A stretch of 64,000 bases of DNA from Hyphomicrobium sp. (GTDB taxonomy: Bacteria; Pseudomonadota; Alphaproteobacteria; Rhizobiales; Hyphomicrobiaceae). The stretch is taken from contig JALHOF010000004.1 of the NCBI GenBank assembly GCA_022843145.1, forward strand, positions 1 to 64,000, written 5' to 3'. Positions within the stretch are counted from its first letter, which is position 1. Every line of letters starts with the position of its first letter. This document shows positions 10,318 through 64,000 of the stretch, piece after piece. Position numbers and translations under genes: made by a program. The notes under the pieces were generated by a model, which saw only the letters and a program-made list of their open reading frames with translations, was not told the origin of the DNA and did no database searches.

Positions 10318-13300
10318 CGGGGCGGACCATGCCATCCGGTGGCGGGCCGGGGAGAGGCTCAATCATCTCTTCGAGGAGACGTGCGACCGACTTGCTGCAG
10401 CCGGCCGGCACGATCACGTTGCCATTTTCACGACGGCTGAGGTCATCACCTTCGCAGAACTCGACCAGCGGGCCAATCGGCTGGCGCACCGTCTCATCGC
10501 GGACGGCGTCGGGCCAGGGCGCTGCGTGGCGCTTCTTCTGGATAAATCAATCAATTCATATGCCGTTCTGCTTGCCATCCTGAAGACCGGCGCGACGTTC
10601 GTGCCGCTCGATGCGAGTTTTCCGCCGGACAGGATCGCCTACATCGCCGCGGATGCCGGGGCGACACATGTCCTGACTGTTGCCGAACACCATAGCCGCT
10701 GCGATGCCGTCGACCGGCCGCGCATCGTCGTGGAGACGGCCGTGGCCGAGGCTCGGGACCTCTCGCCGCTCCGGCTGGACGAGACCTCGCTCGGTGCCAC
10801 GCCGGATGGCGTGTCGTACATCGTCTACACGTCTGGCTCGACGGGGCGGCCGAAGGGCGTCGCGATCGCCCACTCGAGCATCTGCAATTTCGTGCGCGTG
10901 GCAGGTGAGGTCTACGGGATATTCGAGAGTGACCGGATCTACCAGGGGATGACGTTGGCCTTCGATTTCTCGATCGAGGAGCTATGGGTTCCGCTCATTG
11001 CTGGAGCGGCGATCGTGCCCGGACGGTCGGAGGCGACACTCGTCGGACGCGAACTCGCCACTTACCTCGCCGAGCGGCGCGTGACCGGGATTTGCTGTGT
11101 GCCAACGCTGCTGGCGACCATCAACGATGATCTGCCGGAATTGCGCTTCCTGCTCGTATCTGGCGAAGCCTGTCCGCAGGACCTCGTCGCGCGCTGGCAT
11201 CGGCCGTGGCGGCGCATGCTCAACGCCTACGGACCGACCGAGGCCACGGTCACGGCAAGCTGGACCGTACTCGAGCCCGGCAAGGCGGTCACGATCGGCC
11301 AACCGCTGCCAACGTACGCCATGGTGATTCTCGGCGAGGACGTACGCTCCCTTGCCCTGCCCGGCGCGGTGGGCGAGATCGGTATCTCCGGTCCCGGGCT
11401 CGCGCTCGGGTACGTCAACCGGCCCGACCTCACGGGTCAGAGTTTCATCGAGGACTTCGCCGGGCTGCCGGACAACCCATCGAGACGCATTTACCGCACC
11501 GGTGATCTCGGCCGGATCAATGCAGACAGGGAGGTCGAGTATCTCGGCCGCATCGATACACAGGTGAAGGTGCGCGGTTACCGGATCGAGCTCACCGAGA
11601 TCGAATCCGCGCTGCTCGAGCACCCCGCAGTCGCCCAAGCCGTCGTGGCGATGGTGGGCGGTGACGGTGGTCTAAAGGAGCTCGCGGCCTATGTCACCGC
11701 GCGCGACAACGTAAGCGCGATCGATGTCGGAGAGGTGGCGCGGCACCTGAAGTCGCGCCTGCCGGGGTTCATGGTTCCGGCATACATCGTGGAACTCGAC
11801 GAGATCCCGATGCTTCCAAGCAACAAGGCGGACCGCAAGCGCCTGCCGGCGCCGACGGGACCGAGGGTCAACAGCAGCTCGGCCGAGCACGTCGCGCCCC
11901 GCACGCCATTGGAGACGGCAATGGCCCAGGTGCTCGCCGAGGTGCTGGGTCTCGAAGCCGTATCGGTCGCCGATCACGTGTTCGATGATCTCGGTGGAGA
12001 CTCGCTCCGCATGACGGAGTTCGTGTTCGCCCTCGACGAGCGGCTTCCCGGCGCTGGCGTCTCCATTCGCGACGTCTATCTCCACCCGACCGTCGAGCAG
12101 CTCGCCCGCGAGGTCGAGGCGCGTGGCGTCTCGCGCCCGCCTGAGCCGATCGTGGCCGCCAAGCGCGCGGCGGTTGTGCCATCCCGCTTCCAGCATGTGC
12201 TTTGCGGCGCGCTGCAGTTCCTGCACTACACCGTCCTCGCCACGTTCTGGATCGTGGTCGGCGTCGAGGTCGTTCGATGGGAGGCGGCCGCCGTCACGAT
12301 TGTGGATGGCTACTTTCGCCTCGTGGCGGCCACCACCCTGCTTCTTGCGCTCTCGGTCCTGGTGCCGGTGGTAGCCAAGTGGGCCCTGGTTGGACGATTT
12401 CGAGAGGAGCGCATACCGCTTTGGTCGCTCCGCTATGTCCGCTTTTGGATCGTTCGGCAATTGATTCAGACGTGTCCGCTGGTGATGTTCCGCGGCCAGC
12501 CCATCTACAATTTCTACCTTCGTCTGTTGGGTGCCAGGATCGGCGGCGGCGCGTCGATCAACACGCGCTTCCCGCCTGCCTGTCCCGACCTGTTCGAAGT
12601 CGGAGCGGGCGCTGTGCTCGCCAAGGACTGTCTCGTCCAGACCTACCGGGCCGAACGGGGTGAGATCGTGACCGGACGGGTGAATGTTGGCTCCCATGCC
12701 TACGTCGGCGAGGGCTCCGTTCTGGATATCGGTGCTTCGATCGGCGAGCGCGGGCAACTCGCCCATGCTTCGTCTCTGCAGGAAGGCCAGACGATCCCGG
12801 ACGGCGGCCGTGCGTGGGGCTCTCCAGCGGTACCGACCGAGGAGAACTTCGCCCCGCTCGATGAGTGGGCGGCGGGTGGCTGGCGACCGGCGGTGTATAC
12901 CGCATCGGTGTTCGCCGTACTTGTGCTCGCGGTCGTTCCCCTCGTCGAGGTGCTGGCCATCGCGCTAAGCTACGCCTTCGATCCGCGTCTGCCCGACTTC
13001 GCCGCCATGTCGTCGTGGCAAGCCTTAGCCGGCGTCGCCGGCCTTTCCTTCGTCGTCTACGTGACCGGCCTCGTGCTTGGCCTCATCGTCGTCGGGCCGA
13101 TACCCCGGGGTCTTGTGTTGATGTTGCGCTCTGACACCGTCTACCCGCTCTACGGGTTCCACTATGCAGTGGCCTGCCTCGTCTCCTGGCTTAGCAATTC
13201 CTACGCTTACAACGTCATCTTCGGCGACAGCTCGTTCATCATCCACTATCTGCGCTTCATAGGATTCGATCTCGGCGTCGTTCGCCAGTCCGGCTCGAAC

Positions 13301-48903: not shown

Positions 48904-49391
48904 GCGGCATCGATGCCATCGACCGTAAGATCGTGACGGCAACCCAGTGTGGCTTGCCTGTCGTCCGGCAGCCGTTCGCAAGGATCGCAACAGAGATCGG
49001 GTGCAGCGAAGCGGACGTCATCGCACGGCTAGCGGTCATGGCCGCGCGCGGCGTCGTGCGGCGGGTCGCGGCGGCGCCCAATCACTATGCCCTTGGCATG
49101 GTGGCGAACGGAATGTCGGTTTGGGATGTCGACGATACGCAGGTGAGTGCGCTCGGCGCGGAGATTGGAGCGTTGCCCTACGTCACACATTGCTACCGGC
49201 GGCCGCGTGCCCTGCCGGCGTGGCCTTACAATCTGTTTGCGATGGTACATGGCGCGACGCGGGCAGAGGTCGAGACGAAGCGCGCGGAGATCGCGGTGCG
49301 GCTTGGGTCCGCCTGCCGCGCGTCGGACATACTTTATTCGACACGGATCCTGAAGAAGACCGGGCTCCGACTTGCCCGCAGCGGAGGCTAG
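48900..49391 (+). CDS. nirH: NirH, sirohaem decarboxylase subunit
   Basis: A 163-residue Lrp-like protein. [32 protein letters not shown] opens it, and the conserved [21 protein letters not shown], with the active-site His/Arg residues of the family, lies at about 98-118. It completes the D-L-G-H set needed for didecarboxysirohaem. It is coupled to nirG by ATGA and is followed within five bases by nirJ. Confidence 0.92.
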
Positions 49392-49395
49392 CCAG

Positions 49396-50619
49396 ATGTT
49401 CCGGCTCTCGCACTATATGAAGCAACTCGTCGCGCCGACGCCGGTGCGGAGCCGGAAAGGGCCCGTGCGGCCGGTCGTCATCTGGAACTTGACGCGCCGC
49501 TGCAATCTCAAGTGCCGGCATTGCTATGCGGTCGCCGCCGATCATTACTTTCCGGGCGAACTCACGACGTCCGAGGCGGAGGCGGTGCTCGATGATCTCG
49601 CGGCGTTCCGCATCCCCGCGCTGATCCTGTCCGGTGGCGAGCCGCTGTCGCGGGCCGACACACTCGATCTTGCACGCCGCGCCAAGTCGCACGGGCTTTA
49701 TACGGCGCTCTCGACCAACGGCACGCCCATCGCCGGTAAGATCGCCGATGACGTCGCGTCGATCGGCTTCGATTACGTCGGCATCAGTCTCGACGGCATT
49801 GGCGCCACGAACGACTGGTTTCGTGGACTCGACGGAGCGTTCGACGCCGCGTTGTCGGGCGTGCGGGAGTGCGTGGCGCGCGGCATCAAGGTCGGGCTGC
49901 GCTTTACGATGACAAGCGATAACGCGCGGCAATTGCCGGAGTTGCTCGCGCTGGCCGACCGCGAGGGCGTCGCGAAATTCTATCTCTCGCATCTCGTCTA
50001 TGCCGGTCGCGGCAACAAGCATCGCGGCGACGATACGCGCGGCTCCGAGACCCGTTCCGGTCTCGATCTGTTGCTCGAACGGGCTTGGCGAGCGGTCGCG
50101 GACGGTGACGACTTCGAGGTCGTCACGGGAAACAACGATGCCGACGCCGTGTATTTCCTGCAGTGGGCGGCCGAGCGCTTTCCCGCCGATCGCGTCGCCC
50201 ACGTCCGCGCGCACCTCGAGGCCTGGGGCGGAAATTCGTCAGGCCTCGGCGTCGCCAACATCGATACGCAGGGCATCGTGCATCCCGATACCTATTGGTC
50301 GGGATACGCCGCCGGCAATGTTCGCGAGCGGCCGTTCAGCGCGATCTGGCAGGACACGAGCGAGCCGATGCTGGCGGCGCTGCGGACCCGTCCCCGCCCG
50401 CTCAAGGGACGGTGCGGAGCGTGTGCGCACAAATCCGTCTGTGGCGGCAACACGCGGATCCGCGCGCTGCAACTGACGGGCGATCCATGGGCTGCCGATC
50501 CGGCCTGCTATCTGAGCGATGCCGAGGTCGGACTGAACGTGTCCATGGCGATCGACGGTCGCGCCGAAGTCACACCATTCCGGGGTATCAGCCATGATCC
50601 TGCGCATCGCTATCTTTAG
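49396..50619 (+). CDS. nirJ: NirJ, radical SAM haem d1 biosynthesis protein
   Basis: A 407-residue radical SAM enzyme with cluster motif CNLKCRHC (residues 35-42), [14 protein letters not shown] and a C-terminal SPASM-like set of cysteines ([13 protein letters not shown] ... ACYL). NirJ replaces propionate side chains with oxo groups on the porphyrin. The start at 49396 has GGAGG eight bases upstream; eight codons of open frame before it overlap nirH. It overlaps nirN by 26 bases. Confidence 0.95.
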
Positions 50620-52165
50620 TGCGGTTTGGTGCGGGTTCGCCGCTTCCACCGGGTTCGCCGTCGCAGAGGACGCGTCCACGCCGCAGCGGCTCTATGAGCA
50701 GCAATGCGCGAGCTGCCATGGCCGCGGCCGGCTCGGCGGCACGGGTCCGGCGCTGATCCCCGAGACGTTGTCGCGCATGCACGGTCCGGCCATCGCGAAA
50801 GTCGTCGCGGATGGACGTGTAGCGACACAGATGCCGGCATTCGGCGCGTCGCTGACATCGGCCCAGATCGCCGGGCTCGCCGAGTACATCAAGACGCCAC
50901 TCGCTGAAGTTCCGGCGTGGACGGCCACCGACATCGCCGCGAGCCGCAGCATGTCCGCACGCTACGTTGCGGCAACGGGGCCGGTGTTCAAGGCCGATCC
51001 GCTCAACCTGTTCGTGGTGGTCGAAACCGGCGACCACCACGTGTCGGTGCTCGACGGCGACAGCTACGAGCGCCTCGACCGTTTCGCCACGCCGTTCGCG
51101 GTGCATGGCGGTCCGAAGTTCACACCAGACGGGCGATACGTGTTCATCATGTCGCGCGACGGCTGGGTGCAGAAGTACGACCTCTGGTCGCTGCAAGAGG
51201 TGGGCCGCGTGCGGGCGGGGCTCAACGCGCGCAATATCGCGATCTCGAAGGATGGCCGCTGGCTGGCGGTCGCCAACTACCTGCCACGCACGCTGACGAT
51301 CCTCTCGGCCGAGGATCTATCGGTCGCGCGCATCTTCGATGTCGCGGATAAGTCGGGCGTGCCGTCGCGCGTGTCCGCAGTCTATCAGGCTCCGACACGC
51401 GATAGCTTTATTCTGGCGTTGAAAGACGTTTCGGAGATTTGGGAGATCGCCACCGATCCCAACGCCGAGCCGGTGTTCGAAGGCTTCGTGCACAGCCACG
51501 AGAAGGGCATGGAGGAGGCCTTGCCGAGTTCGCGCGGGCTGTTCGCGCGGCGGCGGATCAAGGTTTCACAACCGCTCGACGACTTTTTCTTCGACCCTCA
51601 ATACCGTCATCTGGTCGGCGCGGCGCGGGAGGGCGGCAAGGCCGTGGTCGTAAATCTGATCGTCGGCAGGGAAATCGCCGAGTTGCCATTGCCGGGCATG
51701 CCGCATCTCGGTTCGGGGATCAGTTGGATGCGGGATGGGCGGCGGGTCATGGCGACGCCGCATCTGAAGGAGGGACGGCTCAGCATCATCGGCGTCGACG
51801 ACTGGTCGATCGTGTCGACGGTCGCCACGGATGGCCCCGGATTCTTCCTCCGTTCGCACGAGTCGACGCCCTATGTTTGGGCCGACGTGTTCTTTGGTCC
51901 CAACAAGGACCGGATGCACATCATCGACAAGCAGAGCCTCGCCATCGTCAAGACGCTGCGGCCGGTGCCAGGCTCGACGGCGGCGCACGTCGAGTTCGAC
52001 CGCCACGGCCGGCATGCGCTGGTTTCGATCTGGGAGGATGACGGCGCGCTCATCGTCTACGACGCGCGCACGTTGGAGGAGGTCCGCCGCATTCCCATGC
52101 GCAAGCCTTCGGGCAAATACAACGTCTGGAACAAAATCACGTTCTCGGAGGGGACCAGTCATTGA
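50594..52165 (+). CDS. nirN: NirN, cd1-type dehydrogenase for haem d1 maturation
   Basis: A 523-residue paralogue of NirS: signal peptide ([21 protein letters not shown]), haem c site CASCHG near residue 38, then a propeller ([54 protein letters not shown]). NirN oxidises dihydro-d1 to haem d1 and hands it to NirS. It is the last gene of the operon; a triple GC-rich repeat begins five bases after its stop. Confidence 0.93.
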
Positions 52166-52465
52166 AGTGCATGGCGCGCCTTGCATGGCGCGCCTTGCGT
52201 GGCGCGCCGCAAGACTGTTTGCGCGGCGGGTCTCGCGTGCGGTTTGGCTTGGGCTCGACACGGCATGGTTTCTAGAGTGCTCGTCGATGACAGCGCACAA
52301 GCAATCTCCTAGAGTAGGTCCCACATCGCCCGATCAGGATCGTGCCGCTTACGCTGACAGTTGCGGGATGGAGAAGCGGTCAGGCGGCGCAAGATCAGGA
52401 ATGGGTCGAGCGCTCACTGCGCGATAGCGGCTGAGGTTTGCCCGAAAGCCACCGACAGGCCGAAA
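52166..52465. other. Intergenic region after nirN
   Basis: It holds the tandem repeat at 52170-52208 and, presumably, the promoter of the binding-protein/kinase/regulator operon. No further gene or clear promoter motif is seen. Confidence 0.4.
52170..52208. repeat. Three tandem copies of a 14-bp GC-rich unit
   Basis: The unit CATGGCGCGCCTTG occurs at 52170-52183 and 52184-52197, then a third partial copy with one change at 52198-52208. Each contains the palindrome GGCGCGCC, so copies can pair in several ways. Its place directly after nirN suggests an effect on transcript ends. Confidence 0.7.
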
Positions 52466-53278
52466 ATGACCGCTAAGGCCAACATCGAGATGACGGAACG
52501 AGTGACGCGCCGGTCGTTGCTACAAGCACTGACAGGTGCAGCGGCTGTGGCATGCGCGGGGCGCTCGACGCGCGCGGCGACCCGTCCGACGCTGCGATTG
52601 AGCACCGCCTTTGGCCCGCCCATCTTTTCGGCGGACGGTTCGGGATATTTCAACCGGCTGATCGGCGAGGCGGCGGCCCGGATCGGTTATGCGGTGGAGA
52701 TCGACGCGCCACCGGCCGAGCGCGCCCTCGTCAACGCCAATGCTGGGATCGTCGACGGCGATGGACCACGGATCCACGACCTCGCCGAGATCGGCGCGTA
52801 TCCAAACTTGATGCGCGTTCCACTGCCGCTGATCTTCGTCGATTTTGTCGCGTTCTCGCGCAATTCCGCGATCGATGTGCACGGCTGGTCGAGCCTTCAA
52901 CCCCACAACGTCGGGATCGTGCGCGGCTGGAAGGTGCTGGAGCAGAACATCACCGGCACGCGTTCGCTCGTACGGACAAAAACCGTGGCACTGCTGTTCG
53001 GGCTCTTGCGCGACAACCGGATCGACGTGGCGGTGATCGACCGCCTGAGCGGACTGGCTACGGCGCGCGCGATGGACATCGCGGATATTCGCGTCTCGCA
53101 GGAGCCTCTGGTCCGGCGACCGATGTACTTGCACCTCCACAATCGCCATGCGTCACTCGTCGAGCCGCTCGCCGCCGCGCTCGCGGCGATGAAGGCGGAC
53201 GGTACATTCAACCAGATCGAAACGGCCACACTCGGCGCGTATCTCGGTGATCGTCCCATCGGCGACGGGGGGCGCTGA
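52466..53278 (+). CDS. Tat-exported periplasmic binding protein, probable sensor partner
   Basis: A 270-residue type 2 periplasmic-binding-fold protein with a twin-arginine signal (TRRSLLQALTGAAAVACAG). The core resembles phosphonate- or amino-acid-type binding proteins (RLSTAFGPPIFSADGSGYFNRLIGEAAARIG, VGIVRGWKVLEQ, ALLFGLLRDNRIDVAVID). No transport genes are attached; instead a histidine kinase starts three bases later. It may present a ligand to that kinase. The start at 52466 follows GACAGGC; the true site is weak. Confidence 0.75.
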   Translation: MTAKANIEMTERVTRRSLLQALTGAAAVACAGRSTRAATRPTLRLSTAFGPPIFSADGSGYFNRLIGEAAARIGYAVEIDAPPAERALVNANAGIVDGDGPRIHDLAEIGAYPNLMRVPLPLIFVDFVAFSRNSAIDVHGWSSLQPHNVGIVRGWKVLEQNITGTRSLVRTKTVALLFGLLRDNRIDVAVIDRLSGLATARAMDIADIRVSQEPLVRRPMYLHLHNRHASLVEPLAAALAAMKADGTFNQIETATLGAYLGDRPIGDGGR

Positions 53279-53281
53279 GAG

Positions 53282-54682
53282 ATGGCCGCGTTGAAATGGC
53301 AGAGCGTCTCGGCCCGACTGATCGTCTCGACGCTGTTCTTCAGTTCGATCGTGACGCTGGCCGCGACGTCGCTGCAGCTTTATATCGACTACGCGCGCGA
53401 CGTGGATCTCATCCATGACCGTATGCGCCAGATCCGCGACAGCTACGTCGAGAGCATCAGCGCCAGTCTATGGGCGCTCGACAGGGAACAGCTTCTGGTC
53501 CAGGTCGAAGGCATCCGCAATCTGCCGGATATGCAGCGGGTCGAAGTGGTCGTCGATGGCGCGGCGTTCGTCTCCGCCGGCCGTGTCGAGAGTTCGAATC
53601 TCATCGAGCGCACGTTTCCGCTGGTCCGCAGCTATAAGGACCGGAACGTGACACTCGGCGCGTTGAAGGCCACCGCGAGTCTGGACGGCGTCTACAGTCG
53701 ATTGCTGGACAAGGTCTTCGTCATACTCGGAACGCAGGCGATCAAGACGTTTCTGGTTTCCGCGTTCATCTTTCTGCTCTTCCAGTATCTCGTCACGCGC
53801 CACCTCATGCGCATGTCGGCCTATGCCCGCGCGCTCGCTCCGGGAACGCTCGGCACGCCCTTGCTACTCGAACGGGGTGCGCACGGCCGCGGCGCGCCCG
53901 ACGAGCTCGACGACGTAGTGCACGCGATCAACGAAATGCGTGACAATCTTCGCCAGTCCTGGTCGGAGCTCGAGACCGAGCACGACCGTCGGGTCGAGGC
54001 GGAAAAACTGGCGAGCATCGGGCAGTTCTCGGCGAGCATCGCGCACGAGATCCGCAATCCGCTGGCCAGCATCATCAACGGCGCGGAGTTGCTCGGGCGC
54101 GAAACCATCTCGGCGGAGAACAAGGCCGAGGTCATTGCATTGGTCAACGCGGAGTCGCAGCGGCTGAAGCGTATCCTCGACGATTTTCTGCGTTTTTCCC
54201 GCCAGCGGACCAGCGAACCCGAACCCAATGATCTGGGGCAGGTCATTCGCCGCGTGGCGGAGACGGTTCGCCTGGGGCTCACCGAAGACCGGCGCATCGA
54301 CATCGCGACCGAGACGGAGCCCGATCTCGGACTTGCCCTCTTCGATCGCGAGCAGATCGAGCAGGTCTTGTGGAACCTTATCCTCAATGGCGTTCAAGCA
54401 ATGCCGGAGGGTGGACGCCTCGTTGTCTCGGCGACCCGTGACGGCCAACGCTGCCGCGTACGCGTGACCGATGCCGGCGTCGGAATGTCGCCGGAATTCA
54501 GCGCCCGGGCGTCGCGGCCGTTCACCTCCGGCCGCCCGCAAGGAACAGGGCTTGGCCTTTCCATCGTTGAGCGTATTCTTGCCGACCACGGCACGGCGCT
54601 ATCGATCGAGAGCGTACCGGGCGCCGGGACCACCGTCGCGTTCGTCCTCGAGACAGTCGACACGCCATGCGCAAAATCCTGA
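53282..54682 (+). CDS. Membrane sensor histidine kinase
   Basis: A 466-residue kinase: helix near residues 10-32, a periplasmic region of about 120 residues, second helix (IKTFLVSAFIFLLFQYLVT), HAMP-like linker, HisKA with phospho-acceptor His255 (SIAHEIRNPLAS), and an ATPase domain (LWNLILNGVQAMPEGG, TDAGVGMSP, GTGLGLSIVERI). It is the NtrB/ZraS-like type that pairs with NtrC-class regulators, encoded here by the next gene, which it overlaps by 16 bases. The periplasmic binding protein just upstream is the likely source of its signal. Confidence 0.92.
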   Translation: MAALKWQSVSARLIVSTLFFSSIVTLAATSLQLYIDYARDVDLIHDRMRQIRDSYVESISASLWALDREQLLVQVEGIRNLPDMQRVEVVVDGAAFVSAGRVESSNLIERTFPLVRSYKDRNVTLGALKATASLDGVYSRLLDKVFVILGTQAIKTFLVSAFIFLLFQYLVTRHLMRMSAYARALAPGTLGTPLLLERGAHGRGAPDELDDVVHAINEMRDNLRQSWSELETEHDRRVEAEKLASIGQFSASIAHEIRNPLASIINGAELLGRETISAENKAEVIALVNAESQRLKRILDDFLRFSRQRTSEPEPNDLGQVIRRVAETVRLGLTEDRRIDIATETEPDLGLALFDREQIEQVLWNLILNGVQAMPEGGRLVVSATRDGQRCRVRVTDAGVGMSPEFSARASRPFTSGRPQGTGLGLSIVERILADHGTALSIESVPGAGTTVAFVLETVDTPCAKS

Positions 54683-56022
54683 TCGTCGACGACGAACACG
54701 CCATTCGACGGACGCTGTGTCTGTTGCTCGAGTCCGAGGGTTATAAGGTCCTCACGGCAGCCACGGCGGACGCCGCGCGTGCGCACCTGGCGGAAGAAGG
54801 CATCGACCTCGTCATTCTCGATCTGCGGCTCGGCGACGACAACGGCATCGATCTGCTGATGCGGATCCGTGAAACGAACACGGATGCCGAGTGCATCATC
54901 ATGACGGCGTTCGGCTCGATCGAGAACGCGGTCGAGTCGATGCGGCTCGGCGCCTACGACTACCTGACCAAACCGATCAATCCGGAAGAATTGATCCTCC
55001 GCGTCAAGCGCGTGTTCGAGAAGAAGCAGCTCGCCGAAGAGGTGACCCGGTTGCGCGACGAGCTGTCGAACAGCTCGCGGCACGACGGGATGGTTGCCGC
55101 AAGCCCCGCAATGCGCGGGATTCTCAACGTGATTCAGCGGATCGGCTCGCAGGATATTCCGGTGTTGGTCCGCGGCGAGACCGGAACAGGCAAGGAACTG
55201 ATCGCCCGCGCGATCCATTTCGCCAGCCATCGCTCACAACGGTTGTTCCTGCCGATCAATTGCTGCGCGCTGCCCGAGGAGTTGCTCGACAGCGAGTTGT
55301 TCGGTCACGTGAAGGGCGCGTTTACAGGCGCGACCGCATCGACGCGGGGACTGTTTCAGCAGGCACACGGCGGCACGCTGTTTCTCGACGAGATCGGCGA
55401 CATCAGTCCGCGTCTGCAAACAAAGTTGCTACGCGTGCTTCAGGAAAAAACCATCCGGCAGGTCGGAGGCGAGCGCCAGATCGAGGTCGATGTGCGGATC
55501 ATCGCGGCGACCAATCGGGATCTCGAGACGGCCGTGCGCAGCGGGGCCTTCCGCAGTGATCTCTTTTTCCGGCTGAATGTCTTGCCACTCCACGTCCCGC
55601 CCATTCGCGAGCGGATCGAGGATCTGACGCCGTTGATCGATCTCTTCGTCGAACGCATCCGGAGGCGGACGGGGCGCAAGCGGCTGGCGGTGACACCGGA
55701 AGCGCGCGCCCGGCTTCACGCCTACCATTGGCCGGGCAACGCAAGGCAACTCGAAAACATCATCGAGCGCGGGTTTGCGTTGTCGAGCACCGACACGATC
55801 GACGTCCCGCAGTTGATGTTCGACGCATCGCCGTTGTTCGAGGTCAAAGGCGCGGCAGCGGACACTCACGAATCCGATCGGGTGTTGCCGACGCTCGAGG
55901 AGCAGACGTTGAAGCACATTCGCGACGCCCTTGCGGCTCACGACGGCAACCAAGTCGCGGCGGCGCGCGCGTTGGGGATCAGCCGCACGACGCTGCGAAG
56001 GCGGCTCGGCTTAGGGCCTTGA
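54667..56022 (+). CDS. NtrC-family sigma-54-dependent response regulator
   Basis: A 451-residue three-domain activator. The receiver domain has phospho-acceptor Asp52 (LVILDLRLGDDNG) and the KPINPEEL lysine. The AAA+ domain has RGETGTGKELIARAIH and the sigma-54-contacting KGAFTGATAS, with DEIGDISPRLQTKLLRVLQE. The Fis-type helix-turn-helix is [21 protein letters not shown]. All residues for phosphorylation, ATP use and sigma-54 contact are intact. The sigma-54 promoter 150 bases downstream, with two palindromic sites between, is its obvious target. Confidence 0.94.
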   Translation: MRKILIVDDEHAIRRTLCLLLESEGYKVLTAATADAARAHLAEEGIDLVILDLRLGDDNGIDLLMRIRETNTDAECIIMTAFGSIENAVESMRLGAYDYLTKPINPEELILRVKRVFEKKQLAEEVTRLRDELSNSSRHDGMVAASPAMRGILNVIQRIGSQDIPVLVRGETGTGKELIARAIHFASHRSQRLFLPINCCALPEELLDSELFGHVKGAFTGATASTRGLFQQAHGGTLFLDEIGDISPRLQTKLLRVLQEKTIRQVGGERQIEVDVRIIAATNRDLETAVRSGAFRSDLFFRLNVLPLHVPPIRERIEDLTPLIDLFVERIRRRTGRKRLAVTPEARARLHAYHWPGNARQLENIIERGFALSSTDTIDVPQLMFDASPLFEVKGAAADTHESDRVLPTLEEQTLKHIRDALAAHDGNQVAAARALGISRTTLRRRLGLGP

Positions 56023-56057
56023 GGGTCCGCGTGCTGGCCTGTTTCGGTGGTCTGGTT

Positions 56058-56085
56058 CTGTACAGGCAGCAGTGAAACTGTACAG
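56058..56085 (+). promoter_or_regulatory. Paired palindromes, probable activator (UAS) sites
   Basis: CTGTACAG occurs at 56058-56065 and again at 56078-56085, 20 bases start to start, about two helical turns. Both lie 89-116 bases upstream of the sigma-54 -24 element. This is the classic arrangement for NtrC-type dimers acting at an adjacent promoter. Confidence 0.65.
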
Positions 56086-56173
56086 GCCCGTTGCAGGGAC
56101 GCCTCCGCCGCAAGGGCCGGCAACCAGCTGACATATATGCGCAAATGCAGAAGTTCGCATATCTGCGGCGCAT

Positions 56174-56189
56174 TGGCACACCCGTTGCA
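56174..56189 (+). promoter_or_regulatory. Sigma-54 (-24/-12) promoter
   Basis: TGGCACACCCGTTGCA matches the consensus TGGCACG-N4-TTGCA except for one weakly conserved base, with correct GG to GC spacing. Transcription should start near 56200, giving a leader of about 120 bases before the ABC substrate-binding protein gene. An inverted pair ATATGCG/CGCATAT (56135-56162) just upstream could mark a bending or operator site. Confidence 0.85.
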
Positions 56190-56322
56190 ATGGTGGTTAA
56201 CAAGAGCCGACCGGTCGAGACGCCCTGCCCGCATCCCGGGTGCGGGCCGCTTTCCTCCTGAAGTCGGCCACTGACAGGGGCCCACGCAGAGCGGTGCGGG
56301 CCTGCAACCGGGAGGATGCAAC

Positions 56323-57411
56323 GTGCTCAAGCGATACCTCTGCCATGCCTTTGCCGCGGCCGTTCTGGCCGCAGGCGCCACATCGGCCGGAGCGGCCGGA
56401 CCCGTCGACATCACCTACGGCTACCACCCCTATTGGACCGGCGGCTGGAACGGCGTGATCATCAAGCACAAGGAGTTCTGGAAGAAGCATCTGCCCGCCG
56501 GCAGCACGGTCAAGTTCGAGGCCCACCTGACGGGCCCGCCGATGGTGAATGCGCTCATCGCCGACAAGATGCAGATCGGTACGATGGGCGATATGCCGTC
56601 TCTGGTCGCCACGACCAAACGCGAGCAGGCCGACATCCGTCTCGTCTCGGTGCCGATGTTTTCGAATGGCCAGAACTGCAACAAGATCCTGGTCGGAAAA
56701 TCGGCTCCGGACTTCAAGACACACGCCGAGGCGATGGCGTGGCTCGAAGGCAAGGCCTTCGCCGTGCATCGCGGAACCTGCGCCAACCGGTTCGTACTCG
56801 CGGCGATCGCAAAAGGCGGCTTCAAGCCGAAGGAAGTTCTCAACATGCCGATCGAGGTGATCGCCTCGAACTTCGAGGCCGGCAAGCTCGCGGCCGGCGC
56901 GATGTGGGAACCGCATGCCCGCCGCGCCGTCGAGAACGGTCACGCGAAGTACATCTCGACCGGCGCGCCGTGGAAAGAGGTCGACGCCAACTTCACGCTG
57001 ATGCGCCAGGACTTTATCGAGAAGCACCCGGAAGCCGCGGTCGGCTGGATGAAGGCGGAGATCGAAGCCGTCAAGTTCATGATCGAGAATCCCGAGGAGA
57101 CGGCGCGGCTGATCGCCAAGGAGACGATCGGATACACGCCGCAGATCGCCTGGTCGGCGCTCTATGAGACCAATCCGGAGCTGATCGGCGGCGATCCGGT
57201 GAACTACGTCGGCAAGATGATCTTCGATGACGAAGTCCTTGCCGCGATGAAGACGGGCTACACGTTCCTGCATTCCGCAAAGGTGCTCGTCGCGCCGGAA
57301 ATGCCGGCAAACGCGTACAACGATGCGCCTCTCAAAGAGGCGCTGAAGCAGCTGGGCCTCACCGCGCCGGTCGGCGTGATCAAGGGCCAGCCCAGAAAAG
57401 TCGTCCAATAA
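56323..57411 (+). CDS. ABC transporter substrate-binding protein (NrtA/SsuA type)
   Basis: A 362-residue exported protein with signal peptide (HAFAAAVLAAGATSAGAAG) and the two-lobed fold of nitrate/sulfonate/taurine binding proteins: DITYGYHPYWTGGWNGVIIKH, TGPPMVNALIADKMQIGTMGD, FAVHRGTCANRFV and AGAMWEPHARRAVENG. It is the first gene after the sigma-54 promoter. The ligand is unknown. Context with methanethiol oxidase favours an organosulfur compound, but a metal-chelator or other small anion is possible. Confidence 0.87.
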   Translation: MLKRYLCHAFAAAVLAAGATSAGAAGPVDITYGYHPYWTGGWNGVIIKHKEFWKKHLPAGSTVKFEAHLTGPPMVNALIADKMQIGTMGDMPSLVATTKREQADIRLVSVPMFSNGQNCNKILVGKSAPDFKTHAEAMAWLEGKAFAVHRGTCANRFVLAAIAKGGFKPKEVLNMPIEVIASNFEAGKLAAGAMWEPHARRAVENGHAKYISTGAPWKEVDANFTLMRQDFIEKHPEAAVGWMKAEIEAVKFMIENPEETARLIAKETIGYTPQIAWSALYETNPELIGGDPVNYVGKMIFDDEVLAAMKTGYTFLHSAKVLVAPEMPANAYNDAPLKEALKQLGLTAPVGVIKGQPRKVVQ

Positions 57412-57522
57412 GCTTGCCACGTGCCTTGCGGGGGCACGAGACGCAACGCGCGCGCGTTGCGCAGCGTGTCCCCGATTTTCTCAGTGGCGGGCACCACGGT
57501 TATCGCAGCCCAGGATCAGAAC

Positions 57523-58053
57523 ATGGAACGCGTCATGGCGAAGAAGCACGCGAGCAGCAGCGGCGACAGCGGCGGGCACAGCGTAGCGGATGGACCTCCA
57601 GTATCGACCGAGGCGGTGCACGCTGCGGATGCCGCCCCGGCTCCGGCAGCCATCGAACCGGCCGGCTCGTGTGCGTGGACGCCCAGCAAGGGCTATGCGT
57701 CGTGGACCAAGTACGGCGAGGTCAAGATGTTCGACGACGGCGGGCATCGCGCGGTCGAACTCATGCTGCTGGCCGCCGCCGCCTGCCTGAATTATTTCCT
57801 CGTCGAATACGTCAAGAGCCGCAACCTGCCGGTCACCAGCATCCGCGTCACCTGCGACGGCGAACCCGTGAAGCGTCCCGACCGGCTAGCGAAGATCGTC
57901 ACCCGCGTCGTCATCGAAGGCAACATCACCGACGAGGAGCGCCGGCGCATGCTCCACGTCTGCGAGCGGTCCTGCAAGGTGATGAACACGCTCCGCAATC
58001 AACCCGAGTGCGAGACCCTGCTGCTGTCGCCCAGCGGCAAGGAGATCGCGTAA
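57523..58053 (+). CDS. OsmC-family protein
   Basis: A 176-residue protein. After an Ala/Ser-rich N-terminal 60 residues comes an OsmC/Ohr-like domain with AVELMLLAAAACLNYFLVEYV and VCERSCKVMNTLRNQP, giving the two conserved cysteines of the thiol-dependent fold. Most relatives reduce organic hydroperoxides, but several carry other thiol or sulfur chemistry. It lies between the binding protein and a lipoyl-carrier gene, suggesting work with sulfur. ATG at 57523 has AGGA upstream; 57535 is an alternative. Confidence 0.8.
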   Translation: MERVMAKKHASSSGDSGGHSVADGPPVSTEAVHAADAAPAPAAIEPAGSCAWTPSKGYASWTKYGEVKMFDDGGHRAVELMLLAAAACLNYFLVEYVKSRNLPVTSIRVTCDGEPVKRPDRLAKIVTRVVIEGNITDEERRRMLHVCERSCKVMNTLRNQPECETLLLSPSGKEIA

Positions 58054-58112
58054 CCGCCGCCGAACCGGCCGCGTCGCACATCGGCCCACGCACAACATCG
58101 AGGTCGTTCCGC

Positions 58113-58490
58113 ATGAAGTTTCCCGACGACTGCCGCTATCACCCCGAGCACATGTGGATCCGCCAGAACGGCGGCATCGGTACGCTCGGCGTCTCGGATT
58201 TCGCACAGAACGCGCTCGGTGACGTGAGCCTCGTCAGCGTGCCGCAGCCAGGTAACCGCATCACGCTCGGCAGCGTGTTCGGCACGATCGAGTCGGCCAA
58301 GGTCGCGTCCGATCTTTTCGCGCCGATCAGCGGAGAGATCGTCGAGATCAATCCCAAGCTTACGAGCGAGCCTTGGCTCGTCAACGACGATGCGTACGGC
58401 GACGGGTGGATCGTTCGCGTCCGCATCGCAGACCCCGGCGAAGCCGAGACGCTGCTGACCGCGGCTGACTACCAGAGCCGGATCGCGTAG
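58113..58490 (+). CDS. GcvH-like lipoyl carrier protein (LbpA-type candidate)
   Basis: A 125-residue protein with the glycine-cleavage H fold: HPEHMWIRQNGGIGTLGVSDFAQNALGDV, then the lipoylation site GTIESAKVASDLFAPISGEIVE with Lys63, and the usual NDDAYGDGWIVRV end. No genes for the other glycine cleavage proteins are near. Stand-alone GcvH-like LbpA proteins serve sulfur oxidation in Hyphomicrobium and relatives; here the neighbours are OsmC, an ABC importer and methanethiol oxidase. A role as a sulfur-carrying lipoyl arm is therefore a reasonable inference. Confidence 0.87.
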   Translation: MKFPDDCRYHPEHMWIRQNGGIGTLGVSDFAQNALGDVSLVSVPQPGNRITLGSVFGTIESAKVASDLFAPISGEIVEINPKLTSEPWLVNDDAYGDGWIVRVRIADPGEAETLLTAADYQSRIA

Positions 58491-58505
58491 CACCAGGAGA
58501 CGCAC

Positions 58506-59342
58506 ATGGCCGACGCGACAACGCCGACGATCACGCGCCGTAATCCATTCGCGAATGAGGGGTTCTGGCTGGCCATGCTCGGCCTCGGTAGCTTCCTGCT
58601 GCTTTGGTACGCGGCCGTAAAGTGGACGCCGATCCAGGCGTTCAATCGCCTCCCCGATCCGCTCACCGTCGTCCGCGAATGGCTGAGCCCGACACCGTCC
58701 TACGGCATTTCGATCTTCACAGCCGACTACTACGTCCACATTCTCTATTCGACCTATCGTGCACTCGCCGCGTTCACGCTCGCAATCCTCTTGGGTGTGC
58801 CGCTCGGCATTTTCATGGGCTGGAAGCGGAGTGTGCACCAGTATGCCTACTCGCTGTTCAGCCTGCTGCGGCCGGTGCCGCCGCTGGCGTGGGTCCCGAT
58901 CGCGATCCTGTTGTTTCCCGGTGTCGAGCCGGCGGTGATCTTCGTGACGTTCCTGGTCGCGTTCTTCGCGATGACGATGAACACCTACGTCGGCGTCAAA
59001 GCGATCCCCGAAGACTATTTCCGCGCGTCAGCCTGTCTCGGCGGCACCAACACCGACATTCTGTGGGATGTCATCATCCCCGGCGCGATGCCGAGCATCT
59101 TCACGGGCTTGCAGATCGCGATGGGCGCGGCGTGGTTCTCGCTCGCCGCAGGCGAGATGATCGCCGCGCAGTACGGCCTCGGCTTCCTGATCTGGGAATC
59201 CTACAACCTCATCCAATACCCCACCATCATCATCGGAATGGCCACGCTCGGCCTGGTTGGATACCTGTCCAGCGCCGCCGTGCGCATGGTCGGCAACCGG
59301 CTGATGGCGTGGCGCGAGCAACGACTTGGAACCGGAGGCTGA
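58506..59342 (+). CDS. ABC transporter permease (first)
   Basis: A 278-residue SsuC/TauC-type permease with about six helices. The ATPase-docking EAA loop is DYFRASACLGGTNTDILWDVIIPGAMPSIFTGLQIAMG. A long N-terminal cytoplasmic/periplasmic stretch (about residues 40-80) precedes the core. AGGAG lies before the ATG at 58506. It is three bases before the first ATPase gene, with which it should pair. Confidence 0.9.
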   Translation: MADATTPTITRRNPFANEGFWLAMLGLGSFLLLWYAAVKWTPIQAFNRLPDPLTVVREWLSPTPSYGISIFTADYYVHILYSTYRALAAFTLAILLGVPLGIFMGWKRSVHQYAYSLFSLLRPVPPLAWVPIAILLFPGVEPAVIFVTFLVAFFAMTMNTYVGVKAIPEDYFRASACLGGTNTDILWDVIIPGAMPSIFTGLQIAMGAAWFSLAAGEMIAAQYGLGFLIWESYNLIQYPTIIIGMATLGLVGYLSSAAVRMVGNRLMAWREQRLGTGG

Positions 59343-59345
59343 AAC

Positions 59346-60218
59346 ATGCGTGACATGCTCGACCTCAATTCCGCGGCGGCGGCCGGCAAGCCTGCCGCCG
59401 CAGGCAAGGTCTCCATCCGCAATGTATCGAAGATCTATGATCCTGAAGGCGCGCGGGTCGTCGCGCTCGACAATTTCAGCGTCGACTTCGCACCCGGCGA
59501 TTTCCTCGCCATCGTCGGACCGTCCGGTTGCGGCAAGAGCACGCTGCTCAATATCCTGGCCGGATTCGATACGCTGACCAGCGGCGAGGTTTATCTCGAC
59601 GACAAGCTGCTCGCCAGCGTGGATCGCCCGCTGGCGCCCGGCCCGGATAGGGTCGTCGTGTTCCAGCAGGGGGCATTGTTCCCGTGGAAAACCGTGCTCG
59701 ACAATGTCACCTACGGTCTCATGAAGCAGGGCCGCACGCCCAGGGCGGAAGCGGAGGCGCGCGGCATCGAAATGCTCAAGGCGTCGGGCGGTCTCGACCG
59801 CATCGCGAAGTCGTTTCCTTCGCAGCTCTCGTCGGGAATGCAGCGACGCGTCGAGATCATCCGCGCGCTCATCAACGATCCGAAAGTGCTTCTGCTCGAC
59901 GAGCCGTTCCGCGCCATGGACACCGTCAACAAGGTGACGATGCACCGGCATCTGCTCGACATCTTCAGGATCAGCCAGAAGACGATCATGTTCATCACGC
60001 ACGACCTCGAGGAGGCGCTGTTCCTCGCGGACCGGGTGATCGTCATGACCACGCGGCCCGGCACCGTGAAGCTCGACATCAAGGTCGATCTGCCGCGTCC
60101 CCGAACGCGCGAGATGATGGCCAGCGACGCCTACATCGCGCTCAAGGAGCGGACCGTGATGGCGGTGCGCGAAGAGGCGCAGAAAGCCTTCGAGCGCGGT
60201 GAGAAGGAGATGGCTTGA
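59346..60218 (+). CDS. ABC transporter ATPase (first)
   Basis: A 290-residue SsuB/TauB-type ATPase. Walker A is GPSGCGKSTLL, the Q-loop VFQQGALFPW, signature LSSGMQRRVEI (Ser for the usual first Gly), Walker B VLLLDEPFRAMD and the switch His in FITHDLEEA. The N-terminal 25 residues are an added Ala-rich stretch. Its stop shares bases with the second permease start (TGATG), so both are co-translated. Confidence 0.92.
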   Translation: MRDMLDLNSAAAAGKPAAAGKVSIRNVSKIYDPEGARVVALDNFSVDFAPGDFLAIVGPSGCGKSTLLNILAGFDTLTSGEVYLDDKLLASVDRPLAPGPDRVVVFQQGALFPWKTVLDNVTYGLMKQGRTPRAEAEARGIEMLKASGGLDRIAKSFPSQLSSGMQRRVEIIRALINDPKVLLLDEPFRAMDTVNKVTMHRHLLDIFRISQKTIMFITHDLEEALFLADRVIVMTTRPGTVKLDIKVDLPRPRTREMMASDAYIALKERTVMAVREEAQKAFERGEKEMA

Positions 60219-61081
60219 TGTCAGACCGATCAATCATCATCGCCACGCACGATGCTGGACCAAGCGCGGCTGCGTCCACCGCGCCCGGCGCCGCCAAACC
60301 GCCTATTCGGCCGCGACGACGCGCATGGCCCACGTTCAACTGGCGCGGTCTCGTCGCGGTCGTCATGTTTTTCCTGGCGTGGCAGCTTGCCGTGACGTTC
60401 AAGGCGCCCGGGTTCCACGAAATTCCAGGCCCGATCACCGTGGTGCAGACGCTTGTTTCCGATTTCCTGTTCACGCGCAGCTATTGGGAATCGTGGCTGA
60501 TCAGTTTCAAACGCGTGTTGCTGGGCTTTCTGTTCGCACAGCTCCTCGGTGTACCGCTCGGCCTCGTTCTGGGATCGAGCCGCCGCTTCAACCGGATCGT
60601 CTTTCCGGTGTTCGAGATGATGCGTCCGATCCCGCCGCTGGCGTGGGTGCCGCTGTCGATCCTGTTCTGGCCGACCAACGAAGCCAGCATCATCTTCATC
60701 ACCTTCATCGGCGCGTTTTTCATCATCACGATCAACGTCTACGACGGCGTAAGATCGATCAAGCAGGAGCACCTGTGGCTCGCCCACTCGCTCGGCGCTT
60801 CACAGCTCACCATCTTCCGCCGCATCGTCATTCCCGCTGTGATTCCGTCGATCGCCGTCGGCATGACGCTCGGCATCGCCGTGACGTGGAATGTCGTGAT
60901 CGCGGCGGAGATGATCGCCAGCGACAGCGGGCTCGGGCGGCTCACATGGGAAGGCTACGTGTCGAGCACGCCGCCCGTGGTTTTCGTCGGGATGGTCAGC
61001 ATCGGTATCGCCGGTGCCCTTTCGACACTGCTCGTCGATGTCATCGAACGCCGCATGATGCCTTGGAAGCGCAAGCGCTGA
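60218..61081 (+). CDS. ABC transporter permease (second)
   Basis: A 287-residue permease, also SsuC/TauC type. A Pro/Arg-rich N-terminal 35 residues leads to about six helices, with EAA loop EHLWLAHSLGASQLTIFRRIVIPAVIPSIAVGMTLG. It is clearly diverged from the first permease, so this may be a heteromeric channel or a second transporter sharing one binding protein. AAGGAG lies before ATG 60218; TTG 60215 is also in frame. Confidence 0.9.
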   Translation: MSDRSIIIATHDAGPSAAASTAPGAAKPPIRPRRRAWPTFNWRGLVAVVMFFLAWQLAVTFKAPGFHEIPGPITVVQTLVSDFLFTRSYWESWLISFKRVLLGFLFAQLLGVPLGLVLGSSRRFNRIVFPVFEMMRPIPPLAWVPLSILFWPTNEASIIFITFIGAFFIITINVYDGVRSIKQEHLWLAHSLGASQLTIFRRIVIPAVIPSIAVGMTLGIAVTWNVVIAAEMIASDSGLGRLTWEGYVSSTPPVVFVGMVSIGIAGALSTLLVDVIERRMMPWKRKR

Positions 61082-61116
61082 CGGCGCGTGCCACGCCATT
61101 TTTTTGGAGATCTGAG

Positions 61117-61911
61117 ATGGGCGATACCACAGGCGAGTTTGTCGGCACGGGTCTCTACAAGTCCTACGCGGGTGCTGGCGCTGACACGCCCGCCGCGCCG
61201 GTGCTCGCGGATTGCTCGTTCCATTTCGAGGCCGGCAAGCTCAACGTCGTGATGGGGACATCGGGTTGCGGGAAGTCGACGCTCGCCTATCTGCTCGCGG
61301 GCTATCAGACGCCCGACCGGGGGACACTGCTGATCGACGGCGAGCCCGTGACTGGCGCAGGATCGGATCGGCTTCTCGTGTTCCAGGAGACCGCGCTGTG
61401 GCCGTGGATGACGGTCGAGGAGAATGTGCTGTTCGGTCCGGTTTCGCGCGGACAGTCGCGGCAGTCGGCGCGGCCGAAAGCCAATGCACTGCTGGACCGT
61501 TTCGGATTGGCTGATTTCAAGGACAAGTATCCGAGCCAGCTTTCAGGCGGGATGATGCGGCGCGCCGAACTCGCACAGGCGCTCGTCAACAACCCCAAGG
61601 TGATGATCCTCGACGAGCCGTTCCGGGGGCTCGACGTGATGACCCGCGAGCTGATGCAGGAATACTATCTCAAGCTATTCGAGGACACGCGGCTCTCGAC
61701 GGTGTTCATTACGGCCGAGCTCGAAGAGGCGCTGTTTCTCGCCGACCGCATCTACATCATGTCCGATGCGCCGAGCCGCATCGTCAAGATCATCGACGTC
61801 GATCTGCCAAGGCCGCGCGAGATCTCGTGCACGGCGACGCGGCGCTATGCGGAACTCGAGCAGGAAGCTCTCACCGCTCTCTACGAGGGCCGCGAACTCG
61901 AAGCGCTGTGA
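61117..61911 (+). CDS. ABC transporter ATPase (second)
   Basis: A 264-residue ATPase of the same class. Walker A is GTSGCGKSTLAYLL, Q-loop VFQETALWPW, signature LSGGMMRRAEL, Walker B VMILDEPFRGLD. The switch position reads FITAELEEALF, with Ala-Glu where His-Asp normally stands. Loss of the switch His, present in the first ATPase, suggests an asymmetric ATPase pair with one weakened site. GGAG precedes the ATG. Confidence 0.92.
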   Translation: MGDTTGEFVGTGLYKSYAGAGADTPAAPVLADCSFHFEAGKLNVVMGTSGCGKSTLAYLLAGYQTPDRGTLLIDGEPVTGAGSDRLLVFQETALWPWMTVEENVLFGPVSRGQSRQSARPKANALLDRFGLADFKDKYPSQLSGGMMRRAELAQALVNNPKVMILDEPFRGLDVMTRELMQEYYLKLFEDTRLSTVFITAELEEALFLADRIYIMSDAPSRIVKIIDVDLPRPREISCTATRRYAELEQEALTALYEGRELEAL

Positions 61912-61956
61912 CCGATACGTTCATCAATCCCGACAACCAACACAAGGAGAGGCATC

Positions 61957-63297
61957 ATGACCGAGAATCGTTGGCGTCCCGATCGACGGCAGGTGATCGC
62001 CGGCCCGGCTGCAGCACTTGCGCTCGGCGCAACGGGAGGGCTTGTTCCGGCGTGGGCGGACGAGACGTGCCAATCGCCCTACATGCCGATGATCACCGGG
62101 CAGGAGGAATACATCTATCTCTGGACGCTGGGGATGGAAGGAGTCGGCGATGGATCGGATAAGGTCGTGACGATCAACGTCCGCCCCGGCTCGAGTACGT
62201 TCGGCAAGGCGGTCGCGTCGGTTTCGGTCGGCGGACGCAACGAGGCGCATCACGCCGGCTTCAACGCGGATCGGCGGTTCATGTGGACGGGCGGCCTCGA
62301 CACCAATCGCATCTTTATCTTCGACGTCGCGTCCGACCCCGGCAAGCCGAAGCTGTCGAAGACCATCGACACGTTCGTCAAGGATTCAGGCGGCGCAGTC
62401 GGCCCGCACACGTTCTACGCGCTGCCCGGCCGCATGCTGATCTCGGCGCTGTCCAACGACAAGGACCACGGTGGCCGGACCGCGCTCGTCGAGTACACCG
62501 ACGAGGGCAAATTCGTCGCCACGCATTGGATTCCGACCAAGGAAGACCCGCGCGGTGCGACGCTCGTCGACGGCTTCGCCGACGGCTACGGCTATGACGT
62601 GCGCGCCCTGATCCGCAAGAACGTGATGCTGACGTCCTCGTTCACCGGCTGGTCGAACTACATGATGGATTTCGGCAAGATGCTGCAGGACAAGGAGGCC
62701 ATGACGCGCTTCGGCCAGACCGTCGTGCAGTGGGATCTCCACACCCGCAAGCCGCGCAAGGTGTTCAAGGTGCCGGGCGCGCCGCTCGAGATCCGCTTCG
62801 GCTGGGGCCCGGCGAGCAATTGGGCCTTCACATCGACGGCGCTGACCTCGAAGTTGTGGCTGATCCACGAGGACGAGAAGGGCGAGTGGCAGGCAAAGGA
62901 AGTCGCCGACATCGGCGATCCGTCGAAGATCCCGCTGCCGGTCGACATCTCCATCGCGTCCGACGACAAGTCGCTGTGGGTGAATACCTTCATGGACGGC
63001 AAAACGCGGCTGTTCGACATCTCCAATCCGATGAAGCCGAAGCAGGTCTACGAGAAACGGATCGGCGCGCAGGTGAACATGGTCTCGCAGAGCTGGGACG
63101 GCAAGCGCGTGTACTTCACGACGTCGCTGCTCGCCAACTGGGACAAGAAGGGCGCGGACAACGAGCAGTTCATCAAAGGCTTCGCGTGGGACGGCAAGGA
63201 GCTGAAGGAAACGTTCAACGTCGACTTCCTGAAGGAAGGCTACGGCCGCGCGCATCTGATGCTGTTCGGCTCGAGCAAGCTCTACAGCAGCACTTGA
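61957..63297 (+). CDS. mtoX: Methanethiol oxidase (SBP56 family), Tat-exported
   Basis: A 446-residue beta-propeller of the selenium-binding-protein-56 family with a twin-arginine signal (RRQVIAGPAAALALG). Family segments include QEEYIYLWTLG, VSVGGRNEAHHAGFNADRRFMWTGGLDTNRIFIFDV, GPHTFYALPGRMLISALSND, GYGYDVRALIRKNVMLTSSFTGW and NMVSQSWDGKRVYFTTSLLANWD, with several His residues suited to copper. Bacterial members oxidise methanethiol to formaldehyde, sulfide and hydrogen peroxide in the periplasm. AAGGAG lies before the ATG. A SCO-type copper protein follows, the arrangement known for mtoX in Hyphomicrobium. Confidence 0.92.
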   Translation: MTENRWRPDRRQVIAGPAAALALGATGGLVPAWADETCQSPYMPMITGQEEYIYLWTLGMEGVGDGSDKVVTINVRPGSSTFGKAVASVSVGGRNEAHHAGFNADRRFMWTGGLDTNRIFIFDVASDPGKPKLSKTIDTFVKDSGGAVGPHTFYALPGRMLISALSNDKDHGGRTALVEYTDEGKFVATHWIPTKEDPRGATLVDGFADGYGYDVRALIRKNVMLTSSFTGWSNYMMDFGKMLQDKEAMTRFGQTVVQWDLHTRKPRKVFKVPGAPLEIRFGWGPASNWAFTSTALTSKLWLIHEDEKGEWQAKEVADIGDPSKIPLPVDISIASDDKSLWVNTFMDGKTRLFDISNPMKPKQVYEKRIGAQVNMVSQSWDGKRVYFTTSLLANWDKKGADNEQFIKGFAWDGKELKETFNVDFLKEGYGRAHLMLFGSSKLYSST

Positions 63298-63414
63298 GAC
63301 GACGGCGCGCGGGCAATCTGCGGAGTGATCCAGGCCTCCCCCGCGCGTCGAAGACTGCCGCCGCGCTCGTGGCGGCGGAACGGCCTTTCAGCGCGGAGTT
63401 CTTCGGACCGAACG

Positions 63415-64000
63415 ATGATGATATCGCCTCGATCCTTGAGCGCGTTGCTTGCAGCCGCCGCTGCAGCGGTGATGCTGGCCGTTGCATGCGACATCCTGCG
63501 CTCGTCTTCTCCGCCAGTGCGTCCGGCAGGATTACGGGTCGACGCGCAAAATCTTGGTGCGACGGCGGGCGGGATGGCGCAGCGTGCGGCGATCATCTCC
63601 CTGCCCGCTGCGTTCCCGCGCACGGAGGCTTTCGATTTTGCGGCGCCGGTGCCGGGAAGCTATACGCTGCCGTCCATCAAGGCGGCGCCGGCCGCATCGC
63701 TCCTCGATCATAACGGCACGGCGACCGAACTGAGCGGGCTCTGGCCCGGACGGATCGCGCTCGTCAGCTTCGTCTATCTCACCTGTACCGACGAAAACGG
63801 CTGCCCTCTGGCCATGTCGGTGCTCTATGACATCGAATTCGCGAGCCGCACGAACGCGGTCCTTCGCGACCAAGTTCAGCTCGTGACTGTAAGTTTCGAT
63901 CCCGTCCGCGATCCGCCTGCGGCATTGGCTGCACTCGTCGCACCGAAGGCGCAAGACATCGCCGAGCGCCGCGTGTTGCCGTGGCGATTTCTGACGGGGA
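63415..64000 (+). CDS. SCO1/SenC-family copper protein (cut by right edge)
   Basis: The open frame continues to the window end (195 codons). A signal or lipoprotein-like leader (LLAAAAAAVMLAVACDILRS) is followed by a thioredoxin-fold domain with GRIALVSFVYLTCTDENGCP and VQLVTVSFDPVRDPP. SCO proteins deliver copper to oxidases. Here the recipient is probably the copper-dependent methanethiol oxidase just upstream. The metal-site cysteines are spaced CX5C (CTDENGC) rather than the usual CX3C. The start is the first of two adjacent ATGs; the ribosome-binding site is weak. Confidence 0.85.
   Translation, partial: MMISPRSLSALLAAAAAAVMLAVACDILRSSSPPVRPAGLRVDAQNLGATAGGMAQRAAIISLPAAFPRTEAFDFAAPVPGSYTLPSIKAAPAASLLDHNGTATELSGLWPGRIALVSFVYLTCTDENGCPLAMSVLYDIEFASRTNAVLRDQVQLVTVSFDPVRDPPAALAALVAPKAQDIAERRVLPWRFLTG

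Follow-up and report, generated by a model that had tools for sequence, protein, structure and literature searches.

Methanethiol holds a central place among the intermediates of the organic sulfur cycle, and the present locus raises the question of how the gene for its oxidase, mtoX, is switched on. In the window, by which we mean the whole stretch of 64,000 nucleotides of Hyphomicrobium sp. DNA analysed here, a preliminary description had noticed a complete sigma-54 control element between an NtrC-type regulator gene and an mtoX locus, and all parts of this element were found in place (Table 1). A sigma-54 two-component switch that recurs across several lineages together with a dedicated importer would be a directly testable regulator, and would offer a handle on both the environmental signal and the compound that is imported before methanethiol is formed.

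The sensor, the promoter and the operon of the window

The regulator gene is intact, its product having a receiver domain with D52, a Walker A motif, GAFTGA and a Fis-type helix-turn-helix (HTH), and it ends 35 bases before the first palindrome, as had been described. The kinase and binding-protein genes preceding it were absent from that description, and ligand sensing through the binding protein and the CHASE5 kinase is plausible from their sequences. The sensor binding protein gave no Pfam match and showed weak profile matches to class II amino-acid binding proteins, which is a distant likeness. Its gene was rejected as a marker of the system because related binding protein-kinase pairs are common without ABC genes. 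The organism is apparently a denitrifier, and elsewhere in its genome there is a pufL-like photosynthesis gene (L115).

Table 1. Features of the sensor, control region and operon, with positions in the window
Feature	Position	Strand	Remarks
Periplasmic binding protein, apparent Tat-type signal	~52445-53278	+	Proposed signal receptor; start approximate
Sensor histidine kinase (CHASE5 periplasmic domain, HAMP, HisKA, HATPase)	53282-54682	+	Pfam
NtrC-type response regulator (receiver, sigma-54 AAA+ with GAFTGA, Fis HTH)	54667-56022	+	Pfam, NCBIfam
CTGTACAG palindrome 1	56058-56065	.	Proposed upstream activator site
CTGTACAG palindrome 2	56078-56085	.	Proposed upstream activator site; about two helical turns from palindrome 1
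Sigma-54 -24/-12 promoter TTGGCACACCCGTTGCA	56173-56189	+	Top-scoring in the window; position and strand matched in L007 and L015
SsuA/NMT1-type substrate-binding protein	56323-57411	+	Two strictly conserved cysteines, C119 and C153
OsmC-family protein, conserved cysteines	57523-58053	+	Start probable; frame open from 57421
GcvH-like lipoyl carrier	58113-58490	+	Lipoyl lysine motif ESAKVASD
ABC permease 1	58506-59342	+	Profile matches
ABC ATPase 1	59346-60218	+	Sequence; 61-73% identical orthologues in most of 20 fetched loci
ABC permease 2	60218-61081	+	Profile match
ABC ATPase 2	61117-61911	+	Profile match
Methanethiol oxidase MtoX	61957-63297	+	NCBIfam NF052453, 751 bits against a cut-off of 650
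SCO1/SenC-like copper chaperone	63415-64000	+	Extends beyond the window end

When both strands of the window were scored with a graded -24/-12 matrix, which was built from general consensus frequencies and not from a fitted training set, TTGGCACACCCGTTGCA ranked first of approximately 128,000 positions. It contains the GG of the -24 element and the GC of the -12 element at the correct spacing. The exact consensus alone, TGGCACACCCGTTGCA at 56174-56189, is unremarkable, being one of six such sites genome-wide, and one-mismatch matches were frequent in shuffled sequence. The genome encodes a single rpoN (one PF04552 match, 236 bits). No sigma-70-like promoter was found by a search of positions 55900 to 64000. 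The regulator-to-operon interval gave no terminator-like site, and read-through from upstream genes could therefore add expression. A GC-rich hairpin, GCCCGCATCC/GGGTGCGGGC at 56227-56247, is located in the expected untranslated leader, and a search of the leader for known RNA elements gave no Rfam match.

Taurine, sulfonate and nitrate binding proteins are the nearest matches of the importer's binding protein. Both of its conserved cysteines are kept in every aligned relative, including versions that are 34-43% identical, which suggests that they form a structural disulfide or that the ligand is soft and sulfur-loving, and the pair may mark the ligand site of the protein. The OsmC-family protein showed distant similarity only to known families. 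Within the sigma-54 operon, the mtoX gene begins 45 bp after the ABC ATPase 2 gene and lacks a separate sigma-54 site; the distances between the genes, among which no obvious terminator was seen, would allow a single transcript to reach mtoX. The gene following SCO1 is mauG (L054:1207-2409). Two further cassettes of a binding protein and a double ABC set, about 40% identical, were observed in the genome (L055 in G000:C3 and L056 in G000:C23), and no mtoX was found beside either of them.

Recurrence of the promoter in other lineages

For comparison, 20 loci were retrieved by the ABC binding protein at 61-80% identity, and these came from scattered lineages, whereas the genomes sampled from the genus, family and order of the window organism carried versions that were only approximately 36-43% identical. 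The module is thus patchy in its distribution, and the ABC/OsmC genes have probably been exchanged between lineages. Neither a wider sample of the phylum nor a plasmid search yielded another close orthologue of the ABC binding protein, so that the comparison comprised these 20 loci.

In two of the loci, from Thiotrichales (L007) and Thiogranum (L015), the whole sensor, consisting of the binding protein, the CHASE5 kinase and the NtrC-type regulator, is located directly upstream of the ABC/OsmC module. In these loci, the proteins encoded ahead of the kinase are 43-44% identical to the sensor binding protein of the window, and the orthologous regulators are 54-55% identical to that of the window, with a recognition helix that is almost unchanged. 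In each of the two, the highest-scoring sigma-54 site was again in the gap between the regulator and the ABC genes on the coding strand (CTGGCATGGCCCCTGCA in L007 and CTGGCATAACTCCTGCA in L015), and the joint chance that the best sites of the window and both relatives all fall in that gap on the correct strand is approximately 1.8 × 10^-7.

In L018 and L019, the genes near the ABC set include different sigma-54 activators, with AAA+ domains that are about 46% identical, and the sigma-54 sites of these loci score 17.3 and 14.3, respectively. A site is therefore present in all the five cassettes with a nearby activator gene (scores 14.3-18.2), while the score was 11.7 or below in the 11 loci that have enough upstream DNA and no such gene nearby. 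The chance of this perfect split is 1 in 4368, a figure that covers activator genes on the retrieved DNA, so that one located elsewhere in a genome would escape. In L017, the binding-protein gene adjoins mtoX without a sigma-54 site, indicating that the linkage does not require sigma-54 control. In a Nitrospirae MAG (L011:316-918, minus strand), a strong sigma-54 site, ATGGCACAAACTTTGCT, was observed just upstream of an OsmC-like gene that is divergent from the same ABC cassette.

These comparisons bear on two other explanations of the locus. The number of exact-consensus sites in the genome and the frequent one-mismatch matches in shuffles would be expected if the -24/-12 match and the palindromes were a functionless chance resemblance and a housekeeping promoter drove the operon, but the position and strand of the site are shared by three lineages, its co-occurrence with activator genes is perfect and no sigma-70-like site was found near the operon, making this explanation very improbable. 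It is also improbable, if somewhat less so, that the main targets of the sensor are the nitrite-reductase (nir) genes next to it, with the ABC/mtoX operon transcribed by read-through. The nirJ- and nirN-like genes (49372-52165) do end just before the sensor binding-protein gene on the same strand, and the terminator-free interval after the regulator suits read-through, but the sensor adjoins ABC/mtoX genes in both relatives, neither L007 nor L015 gave a match to a nir-like gene, and the conserved promoter comes after the regulator and not before it.

Control of the operon by the sigma-54 promoter is further addressed by mtoX in other genomes. In those of Thiotrichales and Thiogranum, mtoX-SCO1-mauG shares a contig with the sensor, approximately 4 kb upstream of it in the same direction in the former and approximately 11 kb from it in the opposite direction in the latter. 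Where mtoX forms a separate unit, a sigma-54 site of its own precedes the start by 147-158 bp in three genomes, namely those of Thiotrichales (TTGGCACTTTTGTTGCA, score 19.1), Thiogranum (GTGGCATAGGTATTGCT, 15.6) and BWSM_72, the genome of L018 (GTGGCCCGAATCTTGCT, 15.1). The background rate of sites scoring at least 14 is approximately 0.02 per kb per strand, and no site reaching this score was found upstream of mtoX in eight other genomes. In L101 (144-788, minus strand, and about 1408), a sigma-54 activator gene is located upstream of mtoX, and the region upstream of this mtoX gave no recognisable -24/-12 site, which weighs against the proposed control. The layout of the window, with mtoX inside the operon, and that of the relatives, with mtoX as a separate unit, would lead to the same outcome, mtoX and the ABC module under sigma-54, and this is the strongest support for the idea of the preliminary description.

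The palindrome pair upstream of the promoter

The two identical copies of CTGTACAG, an 8-bp palindrome, have a start-to-start spacing of 20 bp and begin 116 and 96 bases before the -24 element, in agreement with the earlier reading of two palindromes 20 bases apart and about 100 bases upstream of the promoter. Their centres are approximately 118 and 138 bp before the expected transcript start. These two are the only copies in the 64-kb window, where 0.15 are expected and none of 100 shuffles contained two. The 3.93-Mb genome contains five copies including this pair, and the chance probability that two of the five are this close is approximately 10^-4. When the paired pattern was searched for in the whole genome allowing up to three mismatches, no second occurrence was found, and the reverse control gave more matches than the pattern itself (12 versus 1 paired and 48 versus 5 single), indicating that CTGTACAG is rare in the genome and not enriched. 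No link to the sensor/ABC/mtoX system was found for the other three copies, at least one of which is inside an efflux-pump gene.

Exact copies or pairs of CTGTACAG were absent at the promoters of L007 and L015. In L007, CTGTCCAG matches CTGTACAG at seven of eight positions, 103 bp before the promoter and thus at a similar distance (P approximately 0.04), and nothing resembling CTGTACAG above chance was found at the L015 and mtoX promoters. A common activator site was sought across seven promoters and not found. The palindromes are thus not clearly conserved where the regulator is, judging from these promoter sequences. It may be that the regulator recognises a degenerate motif, with CTGTACAG as a strong local form of it, or that the palindromes serve a different factor.

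The latter would mean that the regulator drives the sigma-54 promoter from another nearby site, and that the CTGTACAG pair is the operator of, for example, a repressor. This is suggested by the weak conservation of CTGTACAG despite the nearly identical recognition helix, and an alternative dyad, CATATATGCG-14-CGCATATCTG at 56132-56165, lies between the palindromes and the -24 element, just upstream of the latter, and is possibly a further protein site. However, the spacing of the pair and its distance from the promoter are typical of enhancer sites, L007 carries CTGTCCAG at a comparable distance, and no other regulator gene adjoins the pair, so that we regard a separate operator as rather unlikely, though deserving weight.

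Proposed regulon and relation to known systems

Our preferred explanation is that the regulator acts through the palindromes. The periplasmic binding protein and the CHASE5 kinase would respond to a compound outside the cell and pass phosphate to the NtrC-type regulator, which would bind the paired CTGTACAG sites and activate RpoN polymerase at TTGGCACACCCGTTGCA. Transcription from there would supply the sulfonate/taurine-type double ABC importer, the OsmC thiol protein, the lipoyl carrier, and MtoX along with the products of its maturation genes. Taken as this whole mechanism, the element is probably the promoter of a sigma-54-dependent organosulfur regulon. Its basis is the anatomy of the locus, the recurrence of the promoter with an activator across lineages and the mtoX sigma-54 sites in three other genomes, and we infer the binding to the palindromes, the phosphorylation, the single transcript and the organosulfur signal. 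The earlier proposal that the regulator drives the ABC/OsmC/GcvH-like/mtoX operon therefore stands in part, sigma-54 control by the neighbouring activator being supported because of the recurrence in other lineages, the single rpoN and the lack of a prior description in the open-access literature.

The OsmC and GcvH-like genes of the window (57523-58490) are joined by a lipoamide dehydrogenase gene in L007 and L015, and the cluster of these relatives (L007:11187-13384; L015:96-1989 and 11087-11506) resembles a complete lipoate-driven Ohr-type redox set. The products of MtoX are hydrogen peroxide, sulfide and formaldehyde. In one report, sulfane sulfur, rather than sulfide, is argued to be the product (PMC10936201). 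OsmC-type Ohr proteins are reduced by lipoylated proteins, with lipoamide dehydrogenase in the assay (PMC5962072), and by analogy the OsmC protein and the GcvH-like carrier, with the dehydrogenase in the relatives, may form an Ohr-like redox unit. It is a reasonable proposal that such a lipoate-driven thiol unit would deal with MtoX products, for example peroxide, or with mixed disulfides. The likeness to the Ohr system consists of an OsmC-superfamily thiol protein grouped with lipoyl carrier and dehydrogenase genes; the OsmC protein of the window differs in being only distantly similar to known families.

A wider reading, which is possible and which we offer tentatively, is that the locus represents an undescribed sigma-54 organosulfur regulon passed as a module between proteobacterial lineages, in which the three-part sensor controls the importer with its two-cysteine binding protein, the lipoate-driven OsmC unit and methanethiol oxidase. 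The inducer would then be the imported substrate, a new organosulfur compound feeding methanethiol formation.

In the open-access literature, to which the search was confined with subscription papers outside its scope, no paper joined methanethiol oxidase with rpoN and none on mtoX mentioned sigma-54, consistent with the preliminary description, whose author was aware of no such control. One IclR-type case was the only regulator of methanethiol oxidation found described there. As far as the accessible text of that paper goes, the mtoX operon of Ruegeria pomeroyi has the IclR-family regulator SPOA0268, is induced by methanethiol and its precursors and has the same gene order, mtoX-SCO1-mauG, while a two-component system, a sigma-54 site or an ABC cassette is not reported in that text (PMC5739008). 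The IclR layout does not apply to the window, where the gene 45 bp before mtoX is for an ABC ATPase and not for an IclR protein. In Hyphomicrobium denitrificans, the response of mtoX to thiosulfate is outside the two studied repressor regulons.

To our knowledge SfnR, which serves sulfur scavenging and is itself subordinate to CysB, has neither a receiver domain nor a kinase, and its targets are sfnFG/msu and not mtoX. What it has in common with the present system is organosulfur metabolism under sigma-54, SfnR being the sigma-54 activator for dimethyl sulfone use in Pseudomonas according to the passage citing it in PMC13352529.

The sigma-54 switching of mtoX thus appears, from the sequences compared here, to be real, built from known parts and apparently undescribed. 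Some of the aio clusters for arsenite oxidase also have a periplasmic binding protein, AioX; a PhnD-like arsenite-binding protein would be expected in such a system, and the sensor binding protein of the window shows a weak likeness to amino-acid binding proteins. Arsenite oxidase is under the control of AoxRS (AioSR) and RpoN, and its sigma-54 promoter is confined to cases in which the genes for the regulators are found as well (PMC2848651). The two systems are alike in having a kinase and an NtrC-type regulator beside an operon with a sigma-54 promoter, and in a promoter that tracks the regulator genes; they differ in the target, which is arsenite oxidase in the one and the ABC importer, OsmC, GcvH-like and mtoX operon in the other.
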